Virus record (IMG/VR): IMGVR_UViG_3300047457_000845
Span: 1-21,329 of that record
Source: a virus
Strand: one strand, 5' to 3'
Length of the DNA stretch: 21,329 nt
Numbering within the stretch: position 1 is the first letter of the stretch; every line of letters begins with the position of its first letter. The notes beneath the pieces were generated by a model. The model was not told the origin of the DNA. It saw only the letters and a program-made list of their open reading frames with translations, and made no database searches. Shown here piece by piece: positions 2,261 to 13,056 of this stretch. Both the position numbers and the translations under genes were made by a program.

Positions 2261-3097
2261 TTAGGACATACGTCTCGTGTGTTCTTCGGACAAACGTGAG
2301 TGCTCTTGGGCCTTCTTCGCCGCTTCAGCCCCCTCTACATTTTTCCACACATGGGCTGCGGTGTAATGGGCTTTCGCTGCCTCGTTGTGAAGGCGCGCCA
2401 ATCCAAACCGGTTAGCCTGTGCAGATGCCGAAGCCGCTTTACGAGACAGATTCTCGGCTACCTTCGGGTCTGAACCGGCATCGGTCGTTCCTGAAACAGC
2501 ATCACCGGCGTTGGCCATAGCCTGTTCGAAACTTTCGAACGCTGGGGAGAGACTCTTCAGAGCGGCTTTGAGCTTCTCGTCGGTAAGCTTACCCTCAAGG
2601 CTTTCTGCGGCGTGCTCCAGTTCTTCGAACTGAATCTGGAGGTGGGCCAAAAGAGTTCGGAAGGTAGACACTTCTGAATCAGCGTCCTTGCTTTTGTGGT
2701 CCGGGAAAGGATCTACAAAAGTCTTGATTGCAGAACGGCCAATACGTTGAGTGTTCCCGTCCGGGAATTCTACGTTGTATAAACCGGACCCCGCAAAAGT
2801 CTTGACCTTAATCCTTGTCCCAGCCGGATATGAACCACCCCCGACTTTAGGAACGGTGCGGATAAGCATTGCCACAGCGTCAGCATCTTTCACGCCAAGG
2901 CTTTTCAATTCCCCGCGAAGCTGTTTCAGCTTTTCAGCCGTCTTTGCTTTTTCCTGAAGTGGAGCGCTACCGGTGTAAGCGTTCATCCGGCTTTCGAGGC
3001 GTTTGATTTCTGCTTTGACTTGAGCGATGCGGTTCTCGGATGAAGTAGCATCCCGTGCTTTACGCGGACGAAGATGAATGTGGACATGCTTAGTCAT
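2261..3097 (-). CDS. Head-associated protein with HVHIHL/KARDA N-terminus, coiled-coil
   Basis: A 278-residue protein of unknown function. It begins MTKHVHIHLRPRKARDATSS, the longest member of a set of neighbours sharing this N-terminal signature. Residues 22-70 are charged and helical. Residues 85-130 form a small beta-rich module (PAGTRIKVKTF, GLYNVEFPDGNTQRIGRSAI) resembling an SH3/KOW-like barrel. Residues 143 to the end are Ala/Glu/Lys-rich helix, probably coiled coil. The [KR]DA tripeptide occurs three times (residues 15-17, 70-72, 137-139), each near a domain boundary. AGGAG precedes the ATG by six bases. Position between capsid and connector genes suggests a head or internal virion protein; that is inference. 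Confidence 0.65.
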   Translation of the reverse strand: MTKHVHIHLRPRKARDATSSENRIAQVKAEIKRLESRMNAYTGSAPLQEKAKTAEKLKQLRGELKSLGVKDADAVAMLIRTVPKVGGGSYPAGTRIKVKTFAGSGLYNVEFPDGNTQRIGRSAIKTFVDPFPDHKSKDADSEVSTFRTLLAHLQIQFEELEHAAESLEGKLTDEKLKAALKSLSPAFESFEQAMANAGDAVSGTTDAGSDPKVAENLSRKAASASAQANRFGLARLHNEAAKAHYTAAHVWKNVEGAEAAKKAQEHSRLSEEHTRRMS

Positions 3098-4337: not shown

Positions 4338-5442
4338 AGAGTCCGTCGAAATATCCGAGTAACTCTGGATATACGATTTCCACAGCGCCGAGCTTACAGA
4401 AGTAAGTGGTCTTGTGGAAAATGGAGTCATACTGTACCGGGGTGCGGTTCAGCAGGGTCATCGGGAAGCGAACGCGATCCCGTTCCTGCTTGTAAACCAC
4501 AGCTCGGTCAACAGTACCGGCTACGCCCAACGTACCGCCTGCACCTGCACCAACGAGCCACTTGACCGGCTTGATGTCCAGTTCCTTACCTTCAGAACGG
4601 GTAAAGAGGTTGTTCTCAAGGATGTACTTGAGGATGGACACGTTACCAGCGTTCGAGACTTTCTGGGTAGCGATGTAACCGTACTGAGCCGGCGGAAGCA
4701 GGATCTTGTCGGAGATGACTGACCAACCTGAAGCCGTCCAAGTGCTAACAAGCATCTCGTTAACGTCTGCAAGGATTTCGTCCGGGGTCTTCTTGGTCCA
4801 CTCGGAGAAACCGCTGATGCCATCGGGCAGGCTGGTCTGCGTACCGTACTGGGTGACCAGCGGGTTATTGACCAGACCATACAGGCCGAGGCTGGAGTCG
4901 CCAACGTAAACCTGTTCGTCGATGTCCATCTGATGCTTGAGCTGGAGAGCTTCAAACTTCTGCTGGTCGATCGGACGGCCAAGCTTTGCAGCTGATTCCA
5001 GTTCGAAGAGGGTGTAAGCCAGCTCATTACCCCAAGGGGTGAGCGGATTTGCAATCTTTGCGATGTCGATAGAAGTGCCGGGAACCTGATTTGATTTACG
5101 GCCGATCCATGACTTACCGTTACCCACAGCCTGACCGTCACCGAGGCCACCGGCTGAAGCAAAGCTTGAAACGGTGAAGCTGGAAACGTCGTCAGCGATG
5201 GTCACATCGTCACGGAGGTCGATATCGCGGCCCCAAGTGACAGCCGCAAGCGGCTTGTGAAGGGTAAGGTCCAAACGCTCCAATTCGCCGACGAGGAATG
5301 CACCCGTTGAGTCAACAGTGCGACCATCGTGGGTCTGGAAATTGGTGCCAAGCAGTCGGCCCCGTTCGGTGCCGGCCTGATCGATAACCTGCTTGCCAGC
5401 GGCATCGAAGGTCATCATATCACGAGTCTTCATTCTTTTCAT
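4336..5442 (-). CDS. Major capsid protein, DUF2184-type (HK97 fold)
   Basis: A 368-residue protein starting MKRMKTRDMM. The pattern 'NPLTPWGNELAYTLFELESAAKLGRPID', 'KHQMDIDEQVYVGDSSLGLYGLVNNP', 'LLPPAQYGYIATQKVS', 'ILKYILENN' and the closing 'TTYFCKLGAVEIVYPELLGYFDGL' is characteristic of DUF2184 major capsid proteins, which adopt the HK97 fold. Length agrees with that family. AGAGGT precedes the ATG at 5442 by nine bases. It follows the cement protein and protease/scaffold genes, the expected assembly order. Whether the N-terminus is trimmed cannot be decided; a K-T-R-D motif at residues 5-8 resembles the putative cleavage motif of this genome. The gene ends in a hairpin-rich gap. Confidence 0.88.
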   Translation of the reverse strand: MKRMKTRDMMTFDAAGKQVIDQAGTERGRLLGTNFQTHDGRTVDSTGAFLVGELERLDLTLHKPLAAVTWGRDIDLRDDVTIADDVSSFTVSSFASAGGLGDGQAVGNGKSWIGRKSNQVPGTSIDIAKIANPLTPWGNELAYTLFELESAAKLGRPIDQQKFEALQLKHQMDIDEQVYVGDSSLGLYGLVNNPLVTQYGTQTSLPDGISGFSEWTKKTPDEILADVNEMLVSTWTASGWSVISDKILLPPAQYGYIATQKVSNAGNVSILKYILENNLFTRSEGKELDIKPVKWLVGAGAGGTLGVAGTVDRAVVYKQERDRVRFPMTLLNRTPVQYDSIFHKTTYFCKLGAVEIVYPELLGYFDGL

Positions 5443-5456
5443 CTGTTGATTACCTC

Positions 5457-5996
5457 TTAGATGTTGAACGCAATTTCAGCGTAGCCGTTGGCGTCAGCGC
5501 TGCTGTTCCAGTAAGCGTTGAGCACTTCGATTGTGTTGCCAGCACTAGCCTGTGCTTCAAAGCCACCCTGTACATGAGAACCCGTTGAGGCTTCATACCA
5601 TACGTAAACTGGGTTGCCTTTCAGCGGGGTCTGGCCTGTGGGAACAGCGACGATCATGAAACCACGGCACATGACATCCACTTCGCCAGAGACCGGAAGA
5701 CCAGAAGCACCGATGCCAACAGCACCGAAATTCTGATTGGTCTGAGCCTGCTGGAACGGATACGGGCGAACCGTAATACCGTAGAGTGCGGTGTCAGCCG
5801 TATCCGTATCGATAATTTTACGGATAGCGTGTGACGTTGCATCGATGACCACAGCCTGACCGAAAGCGGTCGGAGGATTCGTGGTATCCATCAGTGAAGG
5901 AAGAATGTCTACCGGATGGGTACGGTTGACATCACCGGGATAGCCAGCACCCATACGGTACTTGAAGGCTACGTCCTTGAACTTTGCTCTTTTCAT
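5457..5996 (-). CDS. Capsid cement/decoration protein (phage cement gp24-like)
   Basis: A 179-residue protein starting MKRAKFKDVAFKYRMGAGYP. The middle and end ('ALYGITVRPYPFQQ', 'VDVMCRGFMIVAVPTGQTPLKGNPVYVWYEASTG', 'GGFEAQA', final 'ANGYAEIAFNI') match the pattern of structural cement proteins that trimerise on the capsid surface and stabilise it. The ATG at 5996 is preceded by AAGGTG. A longer frame to 6044 overlaps the protease gene and lacks family sequence, so I rejected it. It sits between protease and major capsid genes, the usual site of a decoration protein. Its N-terminus (MKRAKFKD) is similar to that of the major capsid protein (MKRMKTRD). Confidence 0.72.
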   Translation of the reverse strand: MKRAKFKDVAFKYRMGAGYPGDVNRTHPVDILPSLMDTTNPPTAFGQAVVIDATSHAIRKIIDTDTADTALYGITVRPYPFQQAQTNQNFGAVGIGASGLPVSGEVDVMCRGFMIVAVPTGQTPLKGNPVYVWYEASTGSHVQGGFEAQASAGNTIEVLNAYWNSSADANGYAEIAFNI

Positions 5997-6006
5997 GTGT
6001 TTCACC

Positions 6007-6861
6007 TTATTTCTTGGAAGAGTAAGACTGCTTGTTAAGCTCATTCAGCTCCGCAAGAGTCATAACAGGCTTCTTTGCCCGATGACCCATGTCAGGAATT
6101 GAATCCCGAACCTGCCCGTTTGAGTTACGGCTACGCTTGACAGCGGCCGCAGAACGGAACAGGACTCGAGCTGCATCACAAGTCATACGACTGGTATCGA
6201 GGACCTTACCATTGATCAGGTCTTCAATAATCGGACGAGTTGCGGCGGTGCCGTAAGCCATATCCAGAGCCTGCTTGCGCAGTTTGCAGATACGCTTTGC
6301 GGTAACCACGGGAGCTGCAGCCGAATCAAAAGTAGGAATGCGAATGCCCGGAGAAAGAATCTCAGCCAGTGCAATCGTATCCTTAAAGCTATCCTTCAGG
6401 TAGCGTGAATCGCGAGCCTTGGTGACTTCTTCCTCTGAAACACCTTCAGGGGCTTCATCCTTGAGGAATTCTTCAAGCTTCTCGCCTTCTTCACCTTCCT
6501 CGTCGAGAGTCTCCGCTGCAGGCGGGGTATCCCCAGCAAGCTTAGCTTCAAGAGCTTCAAGACGCGAACGGAATTCATCATGGTCAGAATCATTGCGCGC
6601 AATAAACTCATTGATGTCGTCATCGGTGAAAGCCGTGCGGCCCCCGAAATCGTCATCATCCTGTGAGCCAGCGTGGATGTGGATATGAGAGCCGCCAAGC
6701 TCTTCGTCCAGCATACCAACTCGTTCTTCTTCGGTCAGGGCTTCATCCTGAGCCATCTCTTCAGCGATTTCGCTGATTTCTTCGGCATCCTTTGCCTTAT
6801 GAGCCCGGAACAGATAGTCATAGAATCTGCCCAGACCCTTCGTCTTCTTACTTTTCGCCAT
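6007..6861 (-). CDS. Possible nested in-frame scaffold protein inside the protease gene
   Basis: Inside the protease/scaffold gene an ATG at 6861 (MAKSKKTKGLGRFYDYLFRA) is preceded by AGAGG with an 8-base spacer, as good a ribosome binding site as those of the neighbouring genes. It lies just after the end of the DUF2213 protease domain, so translation from here would give a 284-residue protein consisting only of the scaffold part. The same layout is known for lambda C/Nu3. The MAK start and the KAKDA motif 20 residues later also resemble the N-termini of the small head genes downstream. Expression is inferred only. Confidence 0.45.
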   Translation of the reverse strand: MAKSKKTKGLGRFYDYLFRAHKAKDAEEISEIAEEMAQDEALTEEERVGMLDEELGGSHIHIHAGSQDDDDFGGRTAFTDDDINEFIARNDSDHDEFRSRLEALEAKLAGDTPPAAETLDEEGEEGEKLEEFLKDEAPEGVSEEEVTKARDSRYLKDSFKDTIALAEILSPGIRIPTFDSAAAPVVTAKRICKLRKQALDMAYGTAATRPIIEDLINGKVLDTSRMTCDAARVLFRSAAAVKRSRNSNGQVRDSIPDMGHRAKKPVMTLAELNELNKQSYSSKK

Positions 6862-7419
6862 TGGTGTAGCCTCTAAGTTAGGTTTCTGGTCTTTGATTGC
6901 ACATCTTGAACCACAGCGCCCTTGTTCCACAAGAGCAATATGGTTGATGATGATATTAGACTGTTTTCCCATGCCATCGCCGGTGATTTCGTAATCTGCA
7001 TCGTATCCGAGGCTGATTTCTCTTTTACCGCTCTGAACAGCTTCAATGCCTTCCGTTGTGGTAATCATCAGATCCATCAACAAAAGATCGTCCATAGCTC
7101 CTTCACCGCGCCGGACATTAAGGGCTACACCGTGGGCTTCACCTTTCCAATTCGCGGGAGTGACGTCTTCTTCGGGATGGTCATTTGTGACAGGCTTACC
7201 TATCGCGCTAGCGATAGTCGCCGAAGAGAAAACATCTTCCTCATTACGGAAGATTTTGACAACACCGTCTGGACCCGGCTCGATAGGTGTTTCATCAGGA
7301 CCATAAATCATCATACCTGTTCTGGCCACAGGAACGTCCCGGCACAGCAAAAAGCCTTCGGGGGTGAGTTCCTGATTCGGACCAATTTTTTCGACAGTAT
7401 AGACGCTAGCCCTGATCAT
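6007..7419 (-). CDS. Prohead protease with C-terminal scaffold region (DUF2213)
   Basis: A 470-residue protein. Residues 1-180 are the DUF2213 domain, with GKPVTNDHPEEDVTPANWKG (His about 81), REISLGYDADYEI (Ser about 136) and NHIALVEQGRCGSRC (His about 160). A His/Ser/His arrangement fits a herpesvirus-assemblin-like serine protease; the residue roles are inferred. Residues 187-470 are acidic, helical and low-complexity, as in scaffolding regions, and include SHIHIHA (244-250) and K/R-D-A/S motifs at about 210-212, 336-338 and 438-440. The C-terminus TLAELNELNKQSYSSKK is basic. I chose the ATG at 7419 (GGAAC upstream) over a GTG at 7440. Expected role: co-assembly with capsid and portal, then proteolytic maturation and scaffold removal. 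Confidence 0.78.
   Translation of the reverse strand: MIRASVYTVEKIGPNQELTPEGFLLCRDVPVARTGMMIYGPDETPIEPGPDGVVKIFRNEEDVFSSATIASAIGKPVTNDHPEEDVTPANWKGEAHGVALNVRRGEGAMDDLLLMDLMITTTEGIEAVQSGKREISLGYDADYEITGDGMGKQSNIIINHIALVEQGRCGSRCAIKDQKPNLEATPMAKSKKTKGLGRFYDYLFRAHKAKDAEEISEIAEEMAQDEALTEEERVGMLDEELGGSHIHIHAGSQDDDDFGGRTAFTDDDINEFIARNDSDHDEFRSRLEALEAKLAGDTPPAAETLDEEGEEGEKLEEFLKDEAPEGVSEEEVTKARDSRYLKDSFKDTIALAEILSPGIRIPTFDSAAAPVVTAKRICKLRKQALDMAYGTAATRPIIEDLINGKVLDTSRMTCDAARVLFRSAAAVKRSRNSNGQVRDSIPDMGHRAKKPVMTLAELNELNKQSYSSKK
6870..6874 (-). promoter_or_regulatory. Internal Shine-Dalgarno for the nested scaffold start
   Basis: AGAGG on the coding strand, eight bases upstream of the in-frame ATG at 6861, at the protease/scaffold boundary. 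Confidence 0.45.
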
Positions 7420-7508
7420 ACTTATCGTTCCAGAATTCACTTGAAAACAAAATAAACAATCAACACGGTAAATTTAAAGCTAAGAGCAACTGTCAGTCAC
7501 TAGATTTT

Positions 7509-7934
7509 TTAAGAAATCTTTGCAAGCTCAAAATGCATTCCGTCAGGACGTCTCCAATTACCGCCCCATTCAAATCCTGCGTCCGTAAAACACTTGACAA
7601 ATTTAGCAGACAAAACAGGTGGTCTGTCGAATCCATTCCAAGCAGCATTTACGTCGACAGCAAGACCCCATGAATGCAGACTGGGTGTCGCTCCGGCTTT
7701 CTTTTTGCGGATATTGAAGCATCCATCCCACGTTTTCAGTTCGTGGACACATCCGGTCGAAATGAGATTTTTGAAAGCCATCTCCAACGGCCCGTTCATA
7801 AGCCTGTTGCAATAAATCTTTTTCGGAATTACGCCAATCTCTAAATTTTCAGGGACATCCCACAGACCCATGAACTTGGCTTCGTTAGCCTTAGGGTCAC
7901 CCCATTTCGCCTGACACTCTTTCCAAGTAGTCAT
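7509..7934 (-). CDS. Endolysin, M15-family D-Ala peptidase (VanY/L-Ala-D-Glu endopeptidase-like)
   Basis: A 141-residue single-domain peptidoglycan peptidase. The M15 zinc motif is clear: SLHSWGLAVDVN gives His 87 and Asp 94, and PDGMHFELA gives His 134 with Glu 136 nearby, the SxHxxGxAxD...HxE layout of this family. Length is typical of phage M15 endolysins without a separate cell-wall-binding domain, and there is no signal peptide, so release would depend on a holin. The ATG at 7934 overlaps the TGA of the XhlA-like gene (ATGA) and has AAGGGTGG upstream; a GTG at 7943 is the alternative. It acts on peptide cross-links or stem peptides in the cell wall at lysis. Confidence 0.87.
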   Translation of the reverse strand: MTTWKECQAKWGDPKANEAKFMGLWDVPENLEIGVIPKKIYCNRLMNGPLEMAFKNLISTGCVHELKTWDGCFNIRKKKAGATPSLHSWGLAVDVNAAWNGFDRPPVLSAKFVKCFTDAGFEWGGNWRRPDGMHFELAKIS

Positions 7935-8122
7935 CTGAACCACCCTTTGTCGAAAGCCATCGTAAGGATTGAAGCCAAGGCACCCACTGTAAAAGTGACC
8001 CCGGCTATAAAACCTCTTTGCTTCGATTGATTCTCGAGTATTTGATCTACTTTGCCGGCGAGATCCCCCATGTGCTCGACTTTTTCTTCAAGGCGCGCTA
8101 AACGACACGAAAGATCCGGCAT
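7931..8122 (-). CDS. XhlA/holin-accessory-like small membrane protein
   Basis: A 63-residue protein starting MPDLSCRLARLEEKVEHMGD. Residues 5-35 are an amphipathic coiled-coil-like helix (LARLEEKVEHMGDLAGKVDQ) and residues 39-58 one membrane segment (GFIAGVTFTVGALASILTMA), followed by a short basic tail. This order, helix then a single membrane span, is that of haemolysin XhlA-like or class-III holin-like phage proteins. The start at 8122 has a near-perfect AGAGGTGAT; a longer frame to 8191 overlaps the upstream gene. Context between a hydrophobic holin candidate and an M15 endolysin supports a lysis function. Confidence 0.7.
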   Translation of the reverse strand: MPDLSCRLARLEEKVEHMGDLAGKVDQILENQSKQRGFIAGVTFTVGALASILTMAFDKGWFR

Positions 8123-8126
8123 CGTA

Positions 8127-8405
8127 TCACCTCTTTTTGATTCCGGCATCTTTATTAGACGCCGTTTGAATAGCCTGTCCAAGAGCAACACCGATTACTG
8201 CAACGGCGTTAGCCACCGTTTGGACATCCGTAGCGCCTACGCCAATGTAAATGCCTTGGCTTTCAAGAATAGAGACAATCAATGCGGCCAACGGGCCAAG
8301 AATTGAAATAGCGCTAGCGCGCGAACTCCAAGTGCCTGAATTAGATAATTGCTTACCATACTCAAGCGCTCGAGAAAAAGAGGTGACTGCATCAAAAATA
8401 TTCAT
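8127..8405 (-). CDS. Holin-like membrane protein
   Basis: A 92-residue protein starting MNIFDAVTSFSRALEYGKQL. Two hydrophobic segments are visible, about residues 32-50 (ISILGPLAALIVSILESQG) and 60-82 (VQTVANAVAVIGVALGQAI), then a basic tail ending KDAGIKKR. Size, two hydrophobic spans and charged C-terminus agree with phage holins, and the two following genes complete a lysis cassette. No single sequence motif proves holin identity. Confidence 0.62.
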   Translation of the reverse strand: MNIFDAVTSFSRALEYGKQLSNSGTWSSRASAISILGPLAALIVSILESQGIYIGVGATDVQTVANAVAVIGVALGQAIQTASNKDAGIKKR

Positions 8406-8417
8406 GGTGTGCTCCGG

Positions 8418-9185
8418 TTAAAGTTCTTCCTCGAGGATAGGTTGAGGGTAGCACCGGCAGTTTGGGAACATCCCCGCGTGGTACCGATAACCCGGATCTA
8501 CCTCAGGGGGATCATCCCAAGCAATTATCCTGCCGTTAAATTTCTTATGGCTCGCCCTGACATCCCCGTCTCCGGAAGTCCGCCAGTAATAATGCGTTGC
8601 TCCAACGTGTTTTGATCGCGCCATGGTAAGACCGGAAGCGGTTCGAGCCACCTCAGTCCTTGCAATCAGCTGGGCACGACTTTTAGTAACAGAACCTGTT
8701 TCGAGGATTTTGGCGGCTATGCTCGAAGCCCTTTCCCCAGTCGTGATACCTTCGAGGGTCATCCTGTGGACCCGTTCAGCCGCTTCTGTGGGAAGGCTTT
8801 TGATGAGGACCACTTGTTCAGCCATGAAACCTCTAAGGGTTTCTCCCACCGGGGCATCCTGTAGTTCTTTACGCAGAGACCGATTGATTTGTTTGCCTAG
8901 ACGGGTCCAATTGTTTTCGTCGATGGATTCAACGCGCTTGACCATTTTCTCTGCCGCGCTTTCAGCCCACGGGGTAATAGTCTCACTATACTGGCGTAAC
9001 ATGCTTTGAAGGCTAGCTTGCGCTCGCTCCAATTCAGCCGGGGACATCCGGATGTTAATCATACCCTTGACCATGTGGTCAATCTGGGTAGTCAGTTTAC
9101 GAATGTTCCTGAGGTAGTCCCGCTCGACCCGGGAGGCTACGGCATACCGTTCTCTGGCCTGACGTTTTAGCTGTCTTTCGTTCAC
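8418..9185 (-). CDS. Phage Mu F-like head morphogenesis protein
   Basis: A 255-residue protein. The C-terminal third carries the Mu F-like core: AQLIARTEVARTASG (about 171-185), HYYWRTSGDGDVRASHKKFN (198-217), GRIIAWDDPPEVDPGYRYHAG and PNCRCYPQPIL (241-251). The N-terminal 160 residues are helical. In Mu and SPP1 relatives this minor head protein associates with the portal and is needed for head assembly or DNA delivery. The start is GTG, overlapping the portal stop as GTGA at 9182-9185, so it is translationally coupled to the portal. No toxin or ADP-ribosyltransferase extension is present. Adjacency to portal and terminase is the standard order. Confidence 0.85.
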   Translation of the reverse strand: MNERQLKRQARERYAVASRVERDYLRNIRKLTTQIDHMVKGMINIRMSPAELERAQASLQSMLRQYSETITPWAESAAEKMVKRVESIDENNWTRLGKQINRSLRKELQDAPVGETLRGFMAEQVVLIKSLPTEAAERVHRMTLEGITTGERASSIAAKILETGSVTKSRAQLIARTEVARTASGLTMARSKHVGATHYYWRTSGDGDVRASHKKFNGRIIAWDDPPEVDPGYRYHAGMFPNCRCYPQPILEEEL

Positions 9186-11083
9186 AGCTTGTCCGCAAGA
9201 CCTTTGAGCCTATCTGCAAACCCCGGATACATTTCATATGGGAGCTCGTTCGGACTGACCCATAGATGGTCGTAATGCTCGTCACTTAGAACGGGCTCAA
9301 ATGGCAATACACCCTTGACCAAGAACAGCGTAAATCCATCCTTTGTATCAAGATACTCAATGGGCGCCTTTGGATCGAGGGTGTATCCGGTCTCTTCACT
9401 GAACTCCCGGCGAGCCCCAGCCCGCAAGTCTTCACCGGCTTCGACCCACCCACCCGGACAAGACCAAGTAAATGGACCGGTCGAAGCTTCGGCTGAACGG
9501 CGAAGAAGAAGTAGTTTACCGTCTTTGTCCACATAAACGATTCCCGCCGCTTGCTGGGCACTATCCCTAGCCGGGCGGTTGAATTCTGTCATGTCTTCCG
9601 GAGCATGCCCTACCGGTTCTTCAGGCATTGGAGGTTCTTCGTTTTCAGCTTCCGTGATGAATTCGTCTGTCACATTGCTGAAAATGCCGGTGATCCGAGA
9701 CTGCTGTTTCAGTTCCTTGAGCGCGGTAGCCCTGTCAATCAGGCCTGACTCTTCGGTGCTACTTATTGTGCGAGCAGTAGTTTCTGCAATTGTGGCTTTT
9801 TCGGTTTCACTTAACTGCCACAGACTGTTGAATTCGATACGGAAGCCTTCAGGGAGCTCAATACCTTCGGAGGCTGCGATAGCGCGGTAGACCTTAGTAA
9901 CAGATGAGCGGAGATCCTTTTCCTGCTGTTGTTTGATAGTGTCATAGTAATTGCGCAAGTCAGTTTCCCCGGTGCTGAATCCGGATGGGGACTGTCCAAA
10001 CAAACGCACCAGCGGAATCTGAAGCGAGCCAGACAATTGCTGTGCGAATTGAGTCAATGCTTCGGACAGACCACCAAAAGCGGCATGGGTATCGGCGCTG
10101 ACTTCATCTTCGGCATCAAGCAATGTCATGCCTTCAATGCCTTGGAACCTACGCATCATTTCGACATACTTGGTGAGGCCGTTTAGGGCATCACCGCCAG
10201 CCGCTACCACTTGCCGCAGGTTTTTGATTTTGTAATTACGGATGTAGGACTTGTAGACTAATTGGGCGGCACCTGTGGTCGCGGAGTCGAATGCAATCAT
10301 CCTATCGTAAAGGCGTTCGAGAACACTGAGCCCCCACAGGTTCTCCATAACGCGTTGCCAATAGGGAAGGCGGATACCTTCTAAACGAATGCATCGACTG
10401 TAATGAATCTTTTGATTCATTAGCGCAGGTGCCATAGCGGTGACCCTGTAGTACTTCGGGTTACCCATGTTTGGTCCCATTTCCTGTACAAGGTCATAAA
10501 GAGTGGGCTCTACCATCCAACGATCCAACGGTAGAATGCCTTTGAATTGATCTTTGCGAATGGTATTGAGGCGAAGCGGGGTCGAAAGATCCTGCCCCTC
10601 AACTAGTAATACCCCGATAGCCCCACCATACAGGCGTGCCCATTTAATTGTTTCATTCAGGGACTTCCAGATACCTAGTGTCACGGCGGCTTCTTCCATC
10701 GCGAGCACTTGGCCGGGCTCCATTTCCCCTGTCAGGGATACCCCGGCTCGGGTCATATCGTCGGCGACGACATCGACAGCCACCCCGCCAAGCCAACTGC
10801 CCCTGTGAATCCATTCCAGCAAGACACGAATGCGGGTGACGGGGTTAAACCCGTAGGTACTGGATGACATCGCATTGTCACTACCAATACCGAGATTGTG
10901 AGCAAAGTTGACAAAGCTATCCAATGTTTTGTCATTGGTTACTTCGGGAACGTCTTCCCCAGTAATAGCTTGAGAGATTTTCTTGGCCGCCGCATCTGCG
11001 ACTTCTGCTCGAATACGCTGGTCTTCCTCAAGCTGCTTGTCGACTACGCTTTGGATACCGACTCGTTTGTTTCTTCGTGACAT
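9182..11083 (-). CDS. Portal protein (DUF1073 type) fused to a C-terminal NUDIX hydrolase
   Basis: A 633-residue fusion. Residues about 55-470 are a DUF1073-type portal: SSSTYGFNPVTRIRVLLEW, LEWIHRGSWLGGVAVDVVADDMTR, ARLYGGAIGVLL, GLSVLERLYDRM, LSGSLQIPLVRLFGQSPSGFSTGETDLRNYYD and the helical IKQQQEKDLRS. Residues 477-509 are an acidic/Pro linker (EPPMPEEP, then NRPARDSAQ). Residues 511-633 are a complete NUDIX fold with the canonical box from Gly 545 to Tyr 567 (G-x5-E551-x7-R559-E560-F-S-E563-E564-T-G-Y), so the catalytic Glu residues are intact. Portals form the dodecameric DNA gate and motor dock; NUDIX enzymes cleave nucleoside diphosphates linked to other groups. The substrate here is unknown. 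ATG at 11083 with GAGG upstream. Confidence 0.88.
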   Translation of the reverse strand: MSRRNKRVGIQSVVDKQLEEDQRIRAEVADAAAKKISQAITGEDVPEVTNDKTLDSFVNFAHNLGIGSDNAMSSSTYGFNPVTRIRVLLEWIHRGSWLGGVAVDVVADDMTRAGVSLTGEMEPGQVLAMEEAAVTLGIWKSLNETIKWARLYGGAIGVLLVEGQDLSTPLRLNTIRKDQFKGILPLDRWMVEPTLYDLVQEMGPNMGNPKYYRVTAMAPALMNQKIHYSRCIRLEGIRLPYWQRVMENLWGLSVLERLYDRMIAFDSATTGAAQLVYKSYIRNYKIKNLRQVVAAGGDALNGLTKYVEMMRRFQGIEGMTLLDAEDEVSADTHAAFGGLSEALTQFAQQLSGSLQIPLVRLFGQSPSGFSTGETDLRNYYDTIKQQQEKDLRSSVTKVYRAIAASEGIELPEGFRIEFNSLWQLSETEKATIAETTARTISSTEESGLIDRATALKELKQQSRITGIFSNVTDEFITEAENEEPPMPEEPVGHAPEDMTEFNRPARDSAQQAAGIVYVDKDGKLLLLRRSAEASTGPFTWSCPGGWVEAGEDLRAGARREFSEETGYTLDPKAPIEYLDTKDGFTLFLVKGVLPFEPVLSDEHYDHLWVSPNELPYEMYPGFADRLKGLADKL

Positions 11084-11132: not shown

Positions 11133-12530
11133 TCAACTACGCCCCAAACGCTGCCAAGTCATAAGGCTGTCTTGAGCCAGTTCGTTGAAAGCATCTGCCG
11201 AGGCGTCTACCTGATCGTCGTGTGCCGTGCTTGGGAAAGCCTCGAGCTCATCGAAGTAAGCCTCGTTCCAAGCCCCTCTAACCACATCTATATTCCCGTG
11301 CTGCCATTGAGCGGCGAACGGTTCTGCGCGGGTCACCTTGTCACCGGTTACGCGGTTTGTCCGAACAGCAAAGCCTGCAAGGTCTTGAACATAACTTTCG
11401 ACTTGGTCTTTACCCGCTTGTCCGGGATCTTGTGCTAGCCCGACAAGACAAGAATAACCATCGATAAGAGCGGTGTTCTTGACGAGTTCTCTAATCTTAC
11501 CGGATCTTTCCCGGGCACGAATAACGTGGAGAACCACATAGCGCCCATTCTTGCGAAGCCCGATTTTGACACCAGCTGTCCAGTCTGGGTTCGGGGAAGT
11601 ATCGGAGACTTCGGTTGCAGCCAAGTCCCAGTATCGGATGAAGCCCGTAATATCACTCGGCACTTCTTCGAGAATGGTGATTTCGGTGCGTTTGAAATAC
11701 ATCCCGGCGACTGGCCTGATTTTCCAGTTACCCCCGAGGAGGCGTTCGCGTTCGACGCGGCTTAGCGCCAACAGGTTAGCCCGGTAGCCCGGGTCATTGC
11801 GCATCAGAATCTGGTTGTCTTCAAGTCGTGCTGGAATGAAGGTAAAGGATTTCGGTTCAACCTCCTTTCCGTATTCAGCGATAAGCTGTTTGCGGCTATC
11901 CCCCCAGACAATGGTATCTTGAAGACGAATAAACCAACGGACTACTCCAGACCGTTCCGGAATTGGGTAACCAGTCTTTTCATCGATCCACCATTCGATG
12001 AAATCTGCTACCCAGCTGTCAGCATCCGGATTTGTGGTAGCCCGGACATAGGGCCGCACTCCGCAAAGAGAGCGGTTACGAGAGAGCATGTAGAAAAACT
12101 GGTTCTTCGAAAAGTGAGTCAGCTCATCGAACATGATAAGAGGGACCTGAGCTCCCTGCCAATCGAGGACAGTGTTCTCATTCTCAAGGTGGGCCATTTT
12201 AACTTTGCCACCATCTTTCCAACGCCATTCCAGCTGATGGCTTACAGCCCGAGCCCCGGAGAAAGGGAACAGCTTAAAAGCTTCGTCCCATAGACCGCCC
12301 GGGTTCCTAACCTGCGTTGAGTTCCGTCGAAAGATGACGGCTGAGAATTCTGAATTTGTCGGGGTATGCCTTAGGCATTCCATGAGAATGGCGAAGCTTT
12401 TACCGCCTCCGGCCGCTCCACCGAACAAGACGATGTCGGCAGAGCTACCTAAGAATTGTTCTTGAGGACCGGGCTGGGGGCGGAATTCATTCTTCGCTAG
12501 TCGTTTCTTCTTCGGTTTGGTCTCTTCCAT
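11133..12530 (-). CDS. Terminase large subunit (ATPase-nuclease)
   Basis: A 465-residue packaging motor protein. The ATPase domain has Walker A FGGAAGGGKS (36-45), Walker B LIMFDE (131-136) and the coupling motif ATTNPD (164-169). The nuclease domain has RYWDLAA (Asp 302), AQDPGQAG (Asp 368) and AHDDQVDASADAF (Asp 438/439/442), giving the acidic cluster of the RNase H-like fold. It resembles the Terminase_6/6C type. It docks on the portal, drives DNA in with ATP and cuts concatemers. I chose ATG at 12530, which overlaps TerS by 44 bases but has no clear Shine-Dalgarno; a GTG at 12569 and a TTG between are alternatives, so the start is uncertain. Confidence 0.9.
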   Translation of the reverse strand: MEETKPKKKRLAKNEFRPQPGPQEQFLGSSADIVLFGGAAGGGKSFAILMECLRHTPTNSEFSAVIFRRNSTQVRNPGGLWDEAFKLFPFSGARAVSHQLEWRWKDGGKVKMAHLENENTVLDWQGAQVPLIMFDELTHFSKNQFFYMLSRNRSLCGVRPYVRATTNPDADSWVADFIEWWIDEKTGYPIPERSGVVRWFIRLQDTIVWGDSRKQLIAEYGKEVEPKSFTFIPARLEDNQILMRNDPGYRANLLALSRVERERLLGGNWKIRPVAGMYFKRTEITILEEVPSDITGFIRYWDLAATEVSDTSPNPDWTAGVKIGLRKNGRYVVLHVIRARERSGKIRELVKNTALIDGYSCLVGLAQDPGQAGKDQVESYVQDLAGFAVRTNRVTGDKVTRAEPFAAQWQHGNIDVVRGAWNEAYFDELEAFPSTAHDDQVDASADAFNELAQDSLMTWQRLGRS

Positions 12531-13056
12531 TGTGGGGGATATAGAATTGAACAAATGATTCTTTCTCACCAGACGGATCTGTGAGGGCTGTTTTTGTGGG
12601 CATATCTAAGCCCAGTAAGCGAGCTCTGCGCTCGGATACTTTGACCACACGGTCAATGGCTTGGAGCAGTGGGCCTTGGTCGCGGAGCCGGACAGTCTTC
12701 GGCTCTCCGGTTTCTTCGTCAATAATAATTCTGCCTTCGGCGTCTTCGATTACGTCCCGGACAACAGCTCCAGAGTTAACCATGGGGTGAAAGGCTTCAA
12801 GCACTTCCATGGCTTTGCGGTGGAGATGATCGAGTCTTGCCAATTCGATTTTGCGATGCGTCTCGACATCATCGACGATGATGGCCTTGAGCGCCTGCTT
12901 ATACATTTTACGGACGTAAGTCTCGCTAAATCCAAGATCCCGGGCAATCTGGTTAAGGTTCGGATTGTCCCGATACATTTCGAGGATTTTTCGCTGGACC
13001 AGTTTACCAGCCTCTGTGGGCCGGCAGTCTTTACGGGAGCGGGGTAGCTGCGACAT
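12487..13056 (-). CDS. Terminase small subunit (TerS-like)
   Basis: A 189-residue protein starting MSQLPRSRKDCRPTEAG. Residues 35-57 form a helix-turn-helix (NLNQIARDLGFSETYVRKMY), followed by a helical oligomerisation region (about 70-160, with THRKIELARLDHLHRKAMEV and DRVVKVSERRARLLGLD) and an acidic tail (TEEETTSEE). This layout, N-terminal DNA-binding HTH plus helical core directly upstream of TerL, is that of small terminases, which recognise the packaging site and activate the motor. No convincing Shine-Dalgarno precedes the ATG at 13056. Confidence 0.78.
   Translation of the reverse strand: MSQLPRSRKDCRPTEAGKLVQRKILEMYRDNPNLNQIARDLGFSETYVRKMYKQALKAIIVDDVETHRKIELARLDHLHRKAMEVLEAFHPMVNSGAVVRDVIEDAEGRIIIDEETGEPKTVRLRDQGPLLQAIDRVVKVSERRARLLGLDMPTKTALTDPSGEKESFVQFYIPHNGRDQTEEETTSEE

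Follow-up and report, generated by a model that had tools for sequence, protein, structure and literature searches.

Organization of the portal-NUDIX locus

The window, by which we mean the whole 21,329-nt stretch of viral DNA analysed here (IMG/VR record IMGVR_UViG_3300047457_000845), carries on its minus strand a single uninterrupted ORF of 633 aa (9182-11083) in which a phage portal protein is continued at its C-terminus by a NUDIX domain. The portal core (residues 55-476; 9656-10921, minus strand) matches the Pfam family Phage_portal_3 (PF06381, DUF1073) at residues 92-440 (E = 3e-97; 325.9 bits against a cut-off of 33.8), and the solved chain nearest to it by sequence is the Pam3 portal (8hds_A). 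It is followed by an acidic, Pro-rich linker (residues 477-507; 9563-9655, minus strand) and then by the NUDIX domain (residues 508-633; 9182-9562 including the stop codon, minus strand), which is recognized by Pfam, AlphaFold and Foldseek, the Pfam match covering residues 511-618 (E = 5e-16; score 59.3 bits, cut-off 21.1). That is, both Pfam matches exceed their cut-offs within one 633-aa ORF, which bears out the claim of an earlier note on this DNA that an intact NUDIX domain is joined to the C-terminus of a DUF1073 portal.

The DUF1073 portal gene is flanked by the genes for the terminase large subunit (11133-12569, minus strand; Pfam) and for a Mu F-like head morphogenesis protein (MuF; PF04233; 8418-9185, minus strand; Pfam), the latter overlapping the portal stop codon. 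Beyond these lie an M15 peptidase, a DUF2213 head maturation protease/scaffold (6007-7440, minus strand; Pfam), presumed to be the cutting enzyme in the scheme described below, a cement protein and the major capsid protein. The M15-type peptidase (7509-7943) is endolysin-like. It is thus placed within the head module, as is the gene for a small protein containing a hydrophobic stretch (7931-8191), and both have MuF on one side and the protease on the other.

NUDIX box, predicted fold and possible substrates

Read from the sequence, the NUDIX box (residues 545-567; 9383-9451, minus strand) is complete from Gly 545 to Tyr 567 (G-x5-E-x7-R-E-F-S-E-E-T-G-Y), with the catalytic Glu cluster present, exactly where the earlier note had placed an undamaged box. 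The last position of the NUDIX box consensus is an aliphatic residue; the window has Tyr there. When the domain was modelled alone by AlphaFold with 72 aligned domains, a NUDIX fold was predicted (pLDDT 93.9), the feature whose absence from a predicted structure would, according to the same note, have spoken against its idea, and a Foldseek search with this model retrieved 601 PDB chains at E ≤ 0.001, headed by MutT-type, Ap4A-hydrolase and Dcp2 folds. The superfamily box and the predicted fold together mark the domain as a putative hydrolase. In the full-length AlphaFold model, residues 488-508 have a pLDDT below 50 and the NUDIX part starts at residue 512; since the pTM of this model is 0.49, the arrangement of the portal and NUDIX parts relative to each other is unsure.

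Two routes to a substrate were tried and given up. Thirteen NCBIfam models match the window domain and none of them reaches its cut-off, so that no substrate is indicated by the family models, and many Nudix types match the predicted fold about equally well. The sole PADLOC match of the portal-NUDIX protein was PDC-S07 (E = 4e-08), over the NUDIX part. Across the aligned domains, the NCBIfam MutT model matched 72 of 72 and the RNA pyrophosphohydrolase model 70 of 72 at E ≤ 0.001, matches that can stem from the common NUDIX box alone. These matches, and the nearest folds (MutT, Ap4A hydrolases and Dcp2), would suit a role after injection in cleaning up oxidized nucleotides or in decapping NAD- or triphosphate-capped RNA, and not in the destruction of a defence signal, whereas the failure of all 13 matching models to reach cut-off for the window domain, and the shared box as a sufficient source of the matches, argue against such a role, which we consider unlikely. 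In the reading that we prefer, the enzyme would hydrolyse a nucleoside-diphosphate-linked compound in the host, for which an ADP-ribose- or NAD-derived signal or a related dinucleotide would be the likeliest candidate; action on an ADP-ribose/NAD-type signal, and with it a role in counter-defence, is put forward tentatively, as a possible function of the domain.

Recurrence of the fusion and diversity of portal tails

The same fusion is present on two other IMG/VR contigs (L002 and L003), where linker and NUDIX are 91% identical to those of the window. It is also found in diverged phages, one of them the isolate Burkholderia phage Bcep781 (gp17); NUDIX matches also lie inside the portal-named genes of Bcep43, Bcep1 and BcepNY3. 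The search for further portal-NUDIX fusions that the earlier note had called for was thus successful, and these independent fusions rule out an assembly artefact absent from relatives; that the two domains were joined by an assembly or frameshift error is extremely improbable. One NUDIX match per record (PF00293, E ≤ 0.001) was found in six of the six fused relatives searched, the records of which may be fragments.

A set of 83 unique portals (the window included) was compiled, from which portals incomplete at the 3′ end and duplicate tails had been removed. Of these, 10 carried a NUDIX tail and 12 an InPase tail; 5 had a long tail of another kind, and in 56 the tail was short. Pfam agreed for every NUDIX tail and, among the 12 InPase tails, for 8 (nine NUDIX tails and L071 by way of the family counts), the InPase tails of L037, L038, L073 and L238 being assigned by our own profile alone. 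L081 (3767-6745), not counted in this set since the contig ends within its ORF, encodes a portal, then InPase, then an ADP-ribosyltransferase domain in one ORF (Pfam). The only families found by Pfam on the 37 portals of our alignment A3 (E ≤ 0.001) were the portal, NUDIX and InPase families, and an Acb1/2H family was found neither on these 37 nor on nine further portals (L046, L081, L082, L173, L217, L231, L241, L253 and L254, of which L081 and L173 are truncated), with a Pfam copy that may be without an Acb1 model. Fusion of DUF1073 portals to Acb1, an anti-CBASS phosphoesterase, accordingly remains a lead. The suggestion of the earlier note that the portal C-terminus is a docking site for enzymes is therefore upheld by the NUDIX, InPase and ADP-ribosyltransferase tails, but not by an Acb1 tail among the Pfam-scanned portals; the window tail itself is NUDIX and not Acb1 (Pfam).

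A scan with a profile of the portal-fused NUDIX domains gave at least 80 loci. Among the 80 loci listed, 4 had NUDIX joined to the portal, 22 to the N-terminus of the protease and 2 to MuF; the other 52 were without a second domain recognized by our profiles, many of them being NUDIX-led ORFs downstream of the portal. A head or packaging gene was present in 74 of these 80 loci and in 6 there was none. The occurrence of NUDIX on the protease and on MuF would be in keeping with a domain that remains attached to the portal of the virion, is not ejected, and works in assembly or packaging, e.g. by removing nucleotides around the motor or within the prohead. The same can be said of InPase, the commonest other portal domain, which is named a pyrophosphatase, so that both enzymes would act on phosphoanhydrides. 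However, the prevalence of portals with short tails only (56/83) indicates that assembly generally needs no such domain, and the ADP-ribosyltransferase of L081 suits delivery to the host better than packaging. A tethered role appears improbable to us, and the NUDIX domain is very probably a cargo of the head.

In a portal-core tree (82 rows, quick method) the NUDIX tails require three label changes, of which supported branches force one, and the InPase tails require nine; in the NUDIX-domain tree there are six changes, two of them forced by supported branches. As few supported branches force changes, a single origin of portal-NUDIX inside the portal branch of the window remains compatible with the trees, and the Bcep781-type fusion looks to be of separate origin. 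Moreover, PHROG 15528, a family named portal protein, matches stand-alone NUDIX at profile positions 516-633, and therefore portal-NUDIX proteins appear to be included in that family already. Two very long ORFs were also seen, one of 3627 aa in which NUDIX is met at residue 1909 (L129, 2277-13157) and one encoding a 1531-aa portal (L102, 552-5144).

Asp-ended leaders of the capsid and cement proteins

In the window, the major capsid protein starts with the leader MKRMKTRD|M (5419-5442, minus strand) and the cement protein, read from its first ATG, with a leader ending in KRAKFKD|V (5973-6044, minus strand), both delimited by sequence comparison. Across phages, the leaders of these two unrelated proteins vary in length and often share an Asp-site end with the consensus R-x-[K/R]-T-x-D. 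Both genes were present in 97 loci, from which anchorless loci and repeated capsid starts were dropped, leaving 58 phages with distinct capsid proteins: the Asp site was found in both proteins in 41, in the cement protein only in 11, in the capsid protein only in 2 and in neither in 4, counts that derive from scripted anchors, which misplaced, at the least, the capsid site of L231 and the cement sites of L055 and L246. A strict coupling of capsid and cement leaders was rejected, given these exceptions in both directions. The five residues before the Asp were nevertheless more similar within a phage than expected, with 3.37 of 5 positions alike versus 2.55 after permutation (0 of 10,000 permutations as high, in a sample where kinship makes phages non-independent). 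MKTRD was part of one of the six patterns used to search for capsid proteins; the cement proteins were not selected by that motif. The three mis-anchored sites were retained in the permutation test and excluded from the site profile, in which, over 92 leader sites, R occupied position -5 in 81, K or R position -3 in 85 and T position -2 in 80. Furthermore, leaderless versions of either protein often begin with Met at or just past the position of the Asp, which points to a cut after this residue. The cement leaders of L050, L062, L075 and L040 resemble hydrophobic signal peptides ahead of the Asp site.

A predicted protease site at the portal-NUDIX junction

At the junction between linker and NUDIX domain lies RPARD507|S508 (9560-9577, minus strand), which we infer to be a site for the prohead protease, its match to the capsid/cement profile being poor. 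The interval 9182-9560, in which the earlier note had located its fusion, starts only one or two residues from this predicted cut (between bases 9563 and 9562). Two similar sequences occur in the protease itself, AKDA at residues 216-219 (6784-6795, minus strand) and ARDS at residues 342-345 (6406-6417, minus strand), the latter with the same four letters as the portal junction. In 33 chosen ORFs of the window, [AT][KR]D[AS] occurred five times versus 1.0 expected, one of these being the portal-NUDIX junction, two lying within the protease and two in further late proteins.

The junction Asp is present in every portal-NUDIX fusion examined. In all 12 it stands 3-7 residues ahead of the AAG motif with which the NUDIX domain starts; the 12 include the near-copy pairs window/L002 and Bcep781/L165. 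An Asp in this position is less regular elsewhere, at 10/22 for protease fusions, 1/2 for MuF fusions and 17/53 for the others. A loose form of the motif, picked after the sequences had been inspected, was found at 17 of 24 portal-enzyme junctions versus 3.3 ± 1.6 in shuffled sequences; of the 56 short portal tails, 4 have it. These 17 comprised 10 of the 12 NUDIX junctions and 7 of the 12 junctions of the InPase-portal fusions (PF18823), which use the same portal slot as the window and, unlike it, fill it with an enzyme domain unrelated to NUDIX.

The strict capsid/cement profile, with a self-set threshold of 6, was passed by 7 of the 27 long tails and by none of the 56 short tails. It failed on the window and on 20 of the 27 long tails, and the looser pattern was adopted afterwards; the window junction, NRPARD|S, scores below the best place of its own tail, which itself scores only 0.0. 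Portal cores hold 18 strict-profile matches in 35,757 aa (0.50 per 1000) versus 0.78 per 1000 in the tails, so that the density in tails is little above that in cores. This weakness of the motif evidence in the window itself speaks for the tethered role considered above. Three cases agree with the idea of release: the InPase portals of L238 and L241 are without the junction motif and both their capsid and cement proteins are leaderless, and L217, with a leaderless capsid protein and a cement protein that has a leader, carries an InPase portal with the motif. The proteases of the leaderless L238 and L241 retain KARD|A or KTTD|A internally, so that no tight coupling exists between leaders and the sites in the protease. 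With the common-motif counts for it and the strict profile against it, we regard the junction as a putative prohead-protease substrate site.

The Asp motif might instead be a conserved feature of N-terminal arms and linkers that is never cut, in which case NUDIX would enter as an appendage of the portal. Leaders could indeed be structural arms, as is the arm of the E217 cement protein (PMC10329688). This distant relative is described there from residue 1 and so shows no trimming; the first 65 residues of the E217 capsid protein are unseen and, in the wording of that paper, 'could be cleaved' (PMC10329688). Against the uncut arm speaks, on the other hand, a motif that is common to unrelated proteins and more alike within a phage than between phages, that recurs in looser form twice in the window protease, and whose preceding stretch is absent in some phages, the proteins there starting at or just past the motif. 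We consider it rather doubtful, and release of the NUDIX domain by the protease, as far as it can be judged from these sequence patterns, slightly on the probable side.

An HIHIH tag as a second candidate signal for head entry

A 278-aa protein of the window (2261-3097) starts with an HIHIH-type tag, MTKHVHIHLRPRKARD|A (3050-3097, minus strand), of a kind also seen in relatives, and HIHIH is found again at residues 252-256 of the protease/scaffold (6673-6687, minus strand). Small late-region proteins starting M-x(1-6)-[IVLT]-H-[IVL]-H amounted to 62 unique ORFs. Every one of them is on the strand of the head genes, against a background of 10,767 of 20,258 examined ORFs on the other strand (overlapping loci included). 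A site of the basic-D-[AS] type lay within the first 45 residues in 40 of these 62 versus 15.6 ± 3.3 after shuffling, and a matching H-x-H-x-H was present in 55 of 75 proteases/scaffolds. Stand-alone NUDIX genes in L012 and L088 start with a degenerate form of the tag. Peptide strings of the HIHIH kind were met, in the literature of one open library, in a single unrelated paper, with no described role. The tag looks like a capsid-targeting tag of the T4 style and is thus a candidate signal. Further loci with tagged ORFs, besides 2261-3097 of the window, are for example L009, L033, L040, L059, L088 and L176. A motif H-P-R-x-x-x-G-x-F recurs in long portal tails and in HIHIH-tagged proteins (L082, 3887-6862; L053, L040, L059, L194 and L237).

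Proposed route of the NUDIX enzyme into the host

We propose that the portal C-terminus bears the intact NUDIX hydrolase as head cargo, and that assembly of the portal would put the domain inside the prohead; in phage E217, the C-terminal barrel of the portal points into the head (PMC10329688). An enzyme that is to be injected has to come off the portal, which is left behind in the head, and the DUF2213 protease, which we infer would also trim the capsid and cement leaders, may release it by cutting after Asp507 in the linker, predicted to be disordered. The resulting 126-residue NUDIX enzyme would then exit with the DNA into the host and act there on its nucleotide target. For this reading as a whole, from portal-borne cargo to host target, we see an even chance of its being correct.

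The chances are likewise evenly balanced for a joint code, in which proteins would enter the head either on a portal tail or through the HIHIH tag and its pairing with the HIHIH of the protease, and would then be cut after Asp by the DUF2213 protease. The portal-tail cargo of such a code would be NUDIX, InPase and ADP-ribosyltransferase, and cutting at sites that resemble [K/R]-x-[K/R]-[T/A]-x-D|[A/S] would release the cargo as well as the capsid proteins. All pieces of the code would be present in the window, i.e. a tagged protein, a tagged scaffold, the leaders and the portal-borne NUDIX. The common Asp site offers a concrete and cheap test of how portal-fused enzymes get free, and if the code is true, cargo proteins would be predictable from sequence alone across a large phage group, and the presence in the host of early-acting enzymes ahead of any phage gene expression would be explained.

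Comparison with known systems

Nudix domains fused to MuF, portal and head serine peptidase have been described, with the proposals that they may be packaged and injected (PMC9503650, section 3.5.2) and that their role is directed at ADP-ribose; 2H-portal fusions are reported as well (PMC9503650). The window fusion is therefore a member of a known architecture, and as the packaging and injection idea is also in print, what we add is the predicted release step. Like the window, the published head-fused Nudix set includes Nudix on the portal. In contrast to the present analysis, no release site was found in that account of head-fused domains, and its domains are T4 NudE-like, whereas the window domain is only distant to T4 NudE (24 of 61 residues identical, pairwise E = 7e-09). 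The T4 NudE clade is a candidate placement for the window domain: T4 NudE forms the longest branch of the NUDIX tree, which has few columns and poor resolution.

In T4, short capsid targeting propeptides carry proteins into the head and are then cut off after an acidic residue (PMC9026906); gp21 recognizes L/I-X-E, and the phiKZ and SPN3US proteases cleave after Glu (PMC9026906). The portal of SPN3US is itself processed, on its N-terminal side (PMC10052503). A head-entry propeptide and an acidic cut site are thus likenesses to T4, predicted here from sequence, while the residue is Glu there and Asp here, and portal-borne cargo and a DUF2213-type predicted protease are added. In a literature search on cleavage by DUF2213 proteins, within one open library, the term DUF2213 was absent from the papers listed.

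The closest comparison with an isolate is Bcep781 gp17, which, like the window protein, has a C-terminal NUDIX domain on the portal and an Asp at the junction (GAQD|AAM). Its gene is followed by those for MuF, the protease and the minor and major head proteins, with a resolvase gene on the opposite strand between them. It differs from the window in its diverged portal and in the context of the Asp, which is A-[MQ]-D-[AS].
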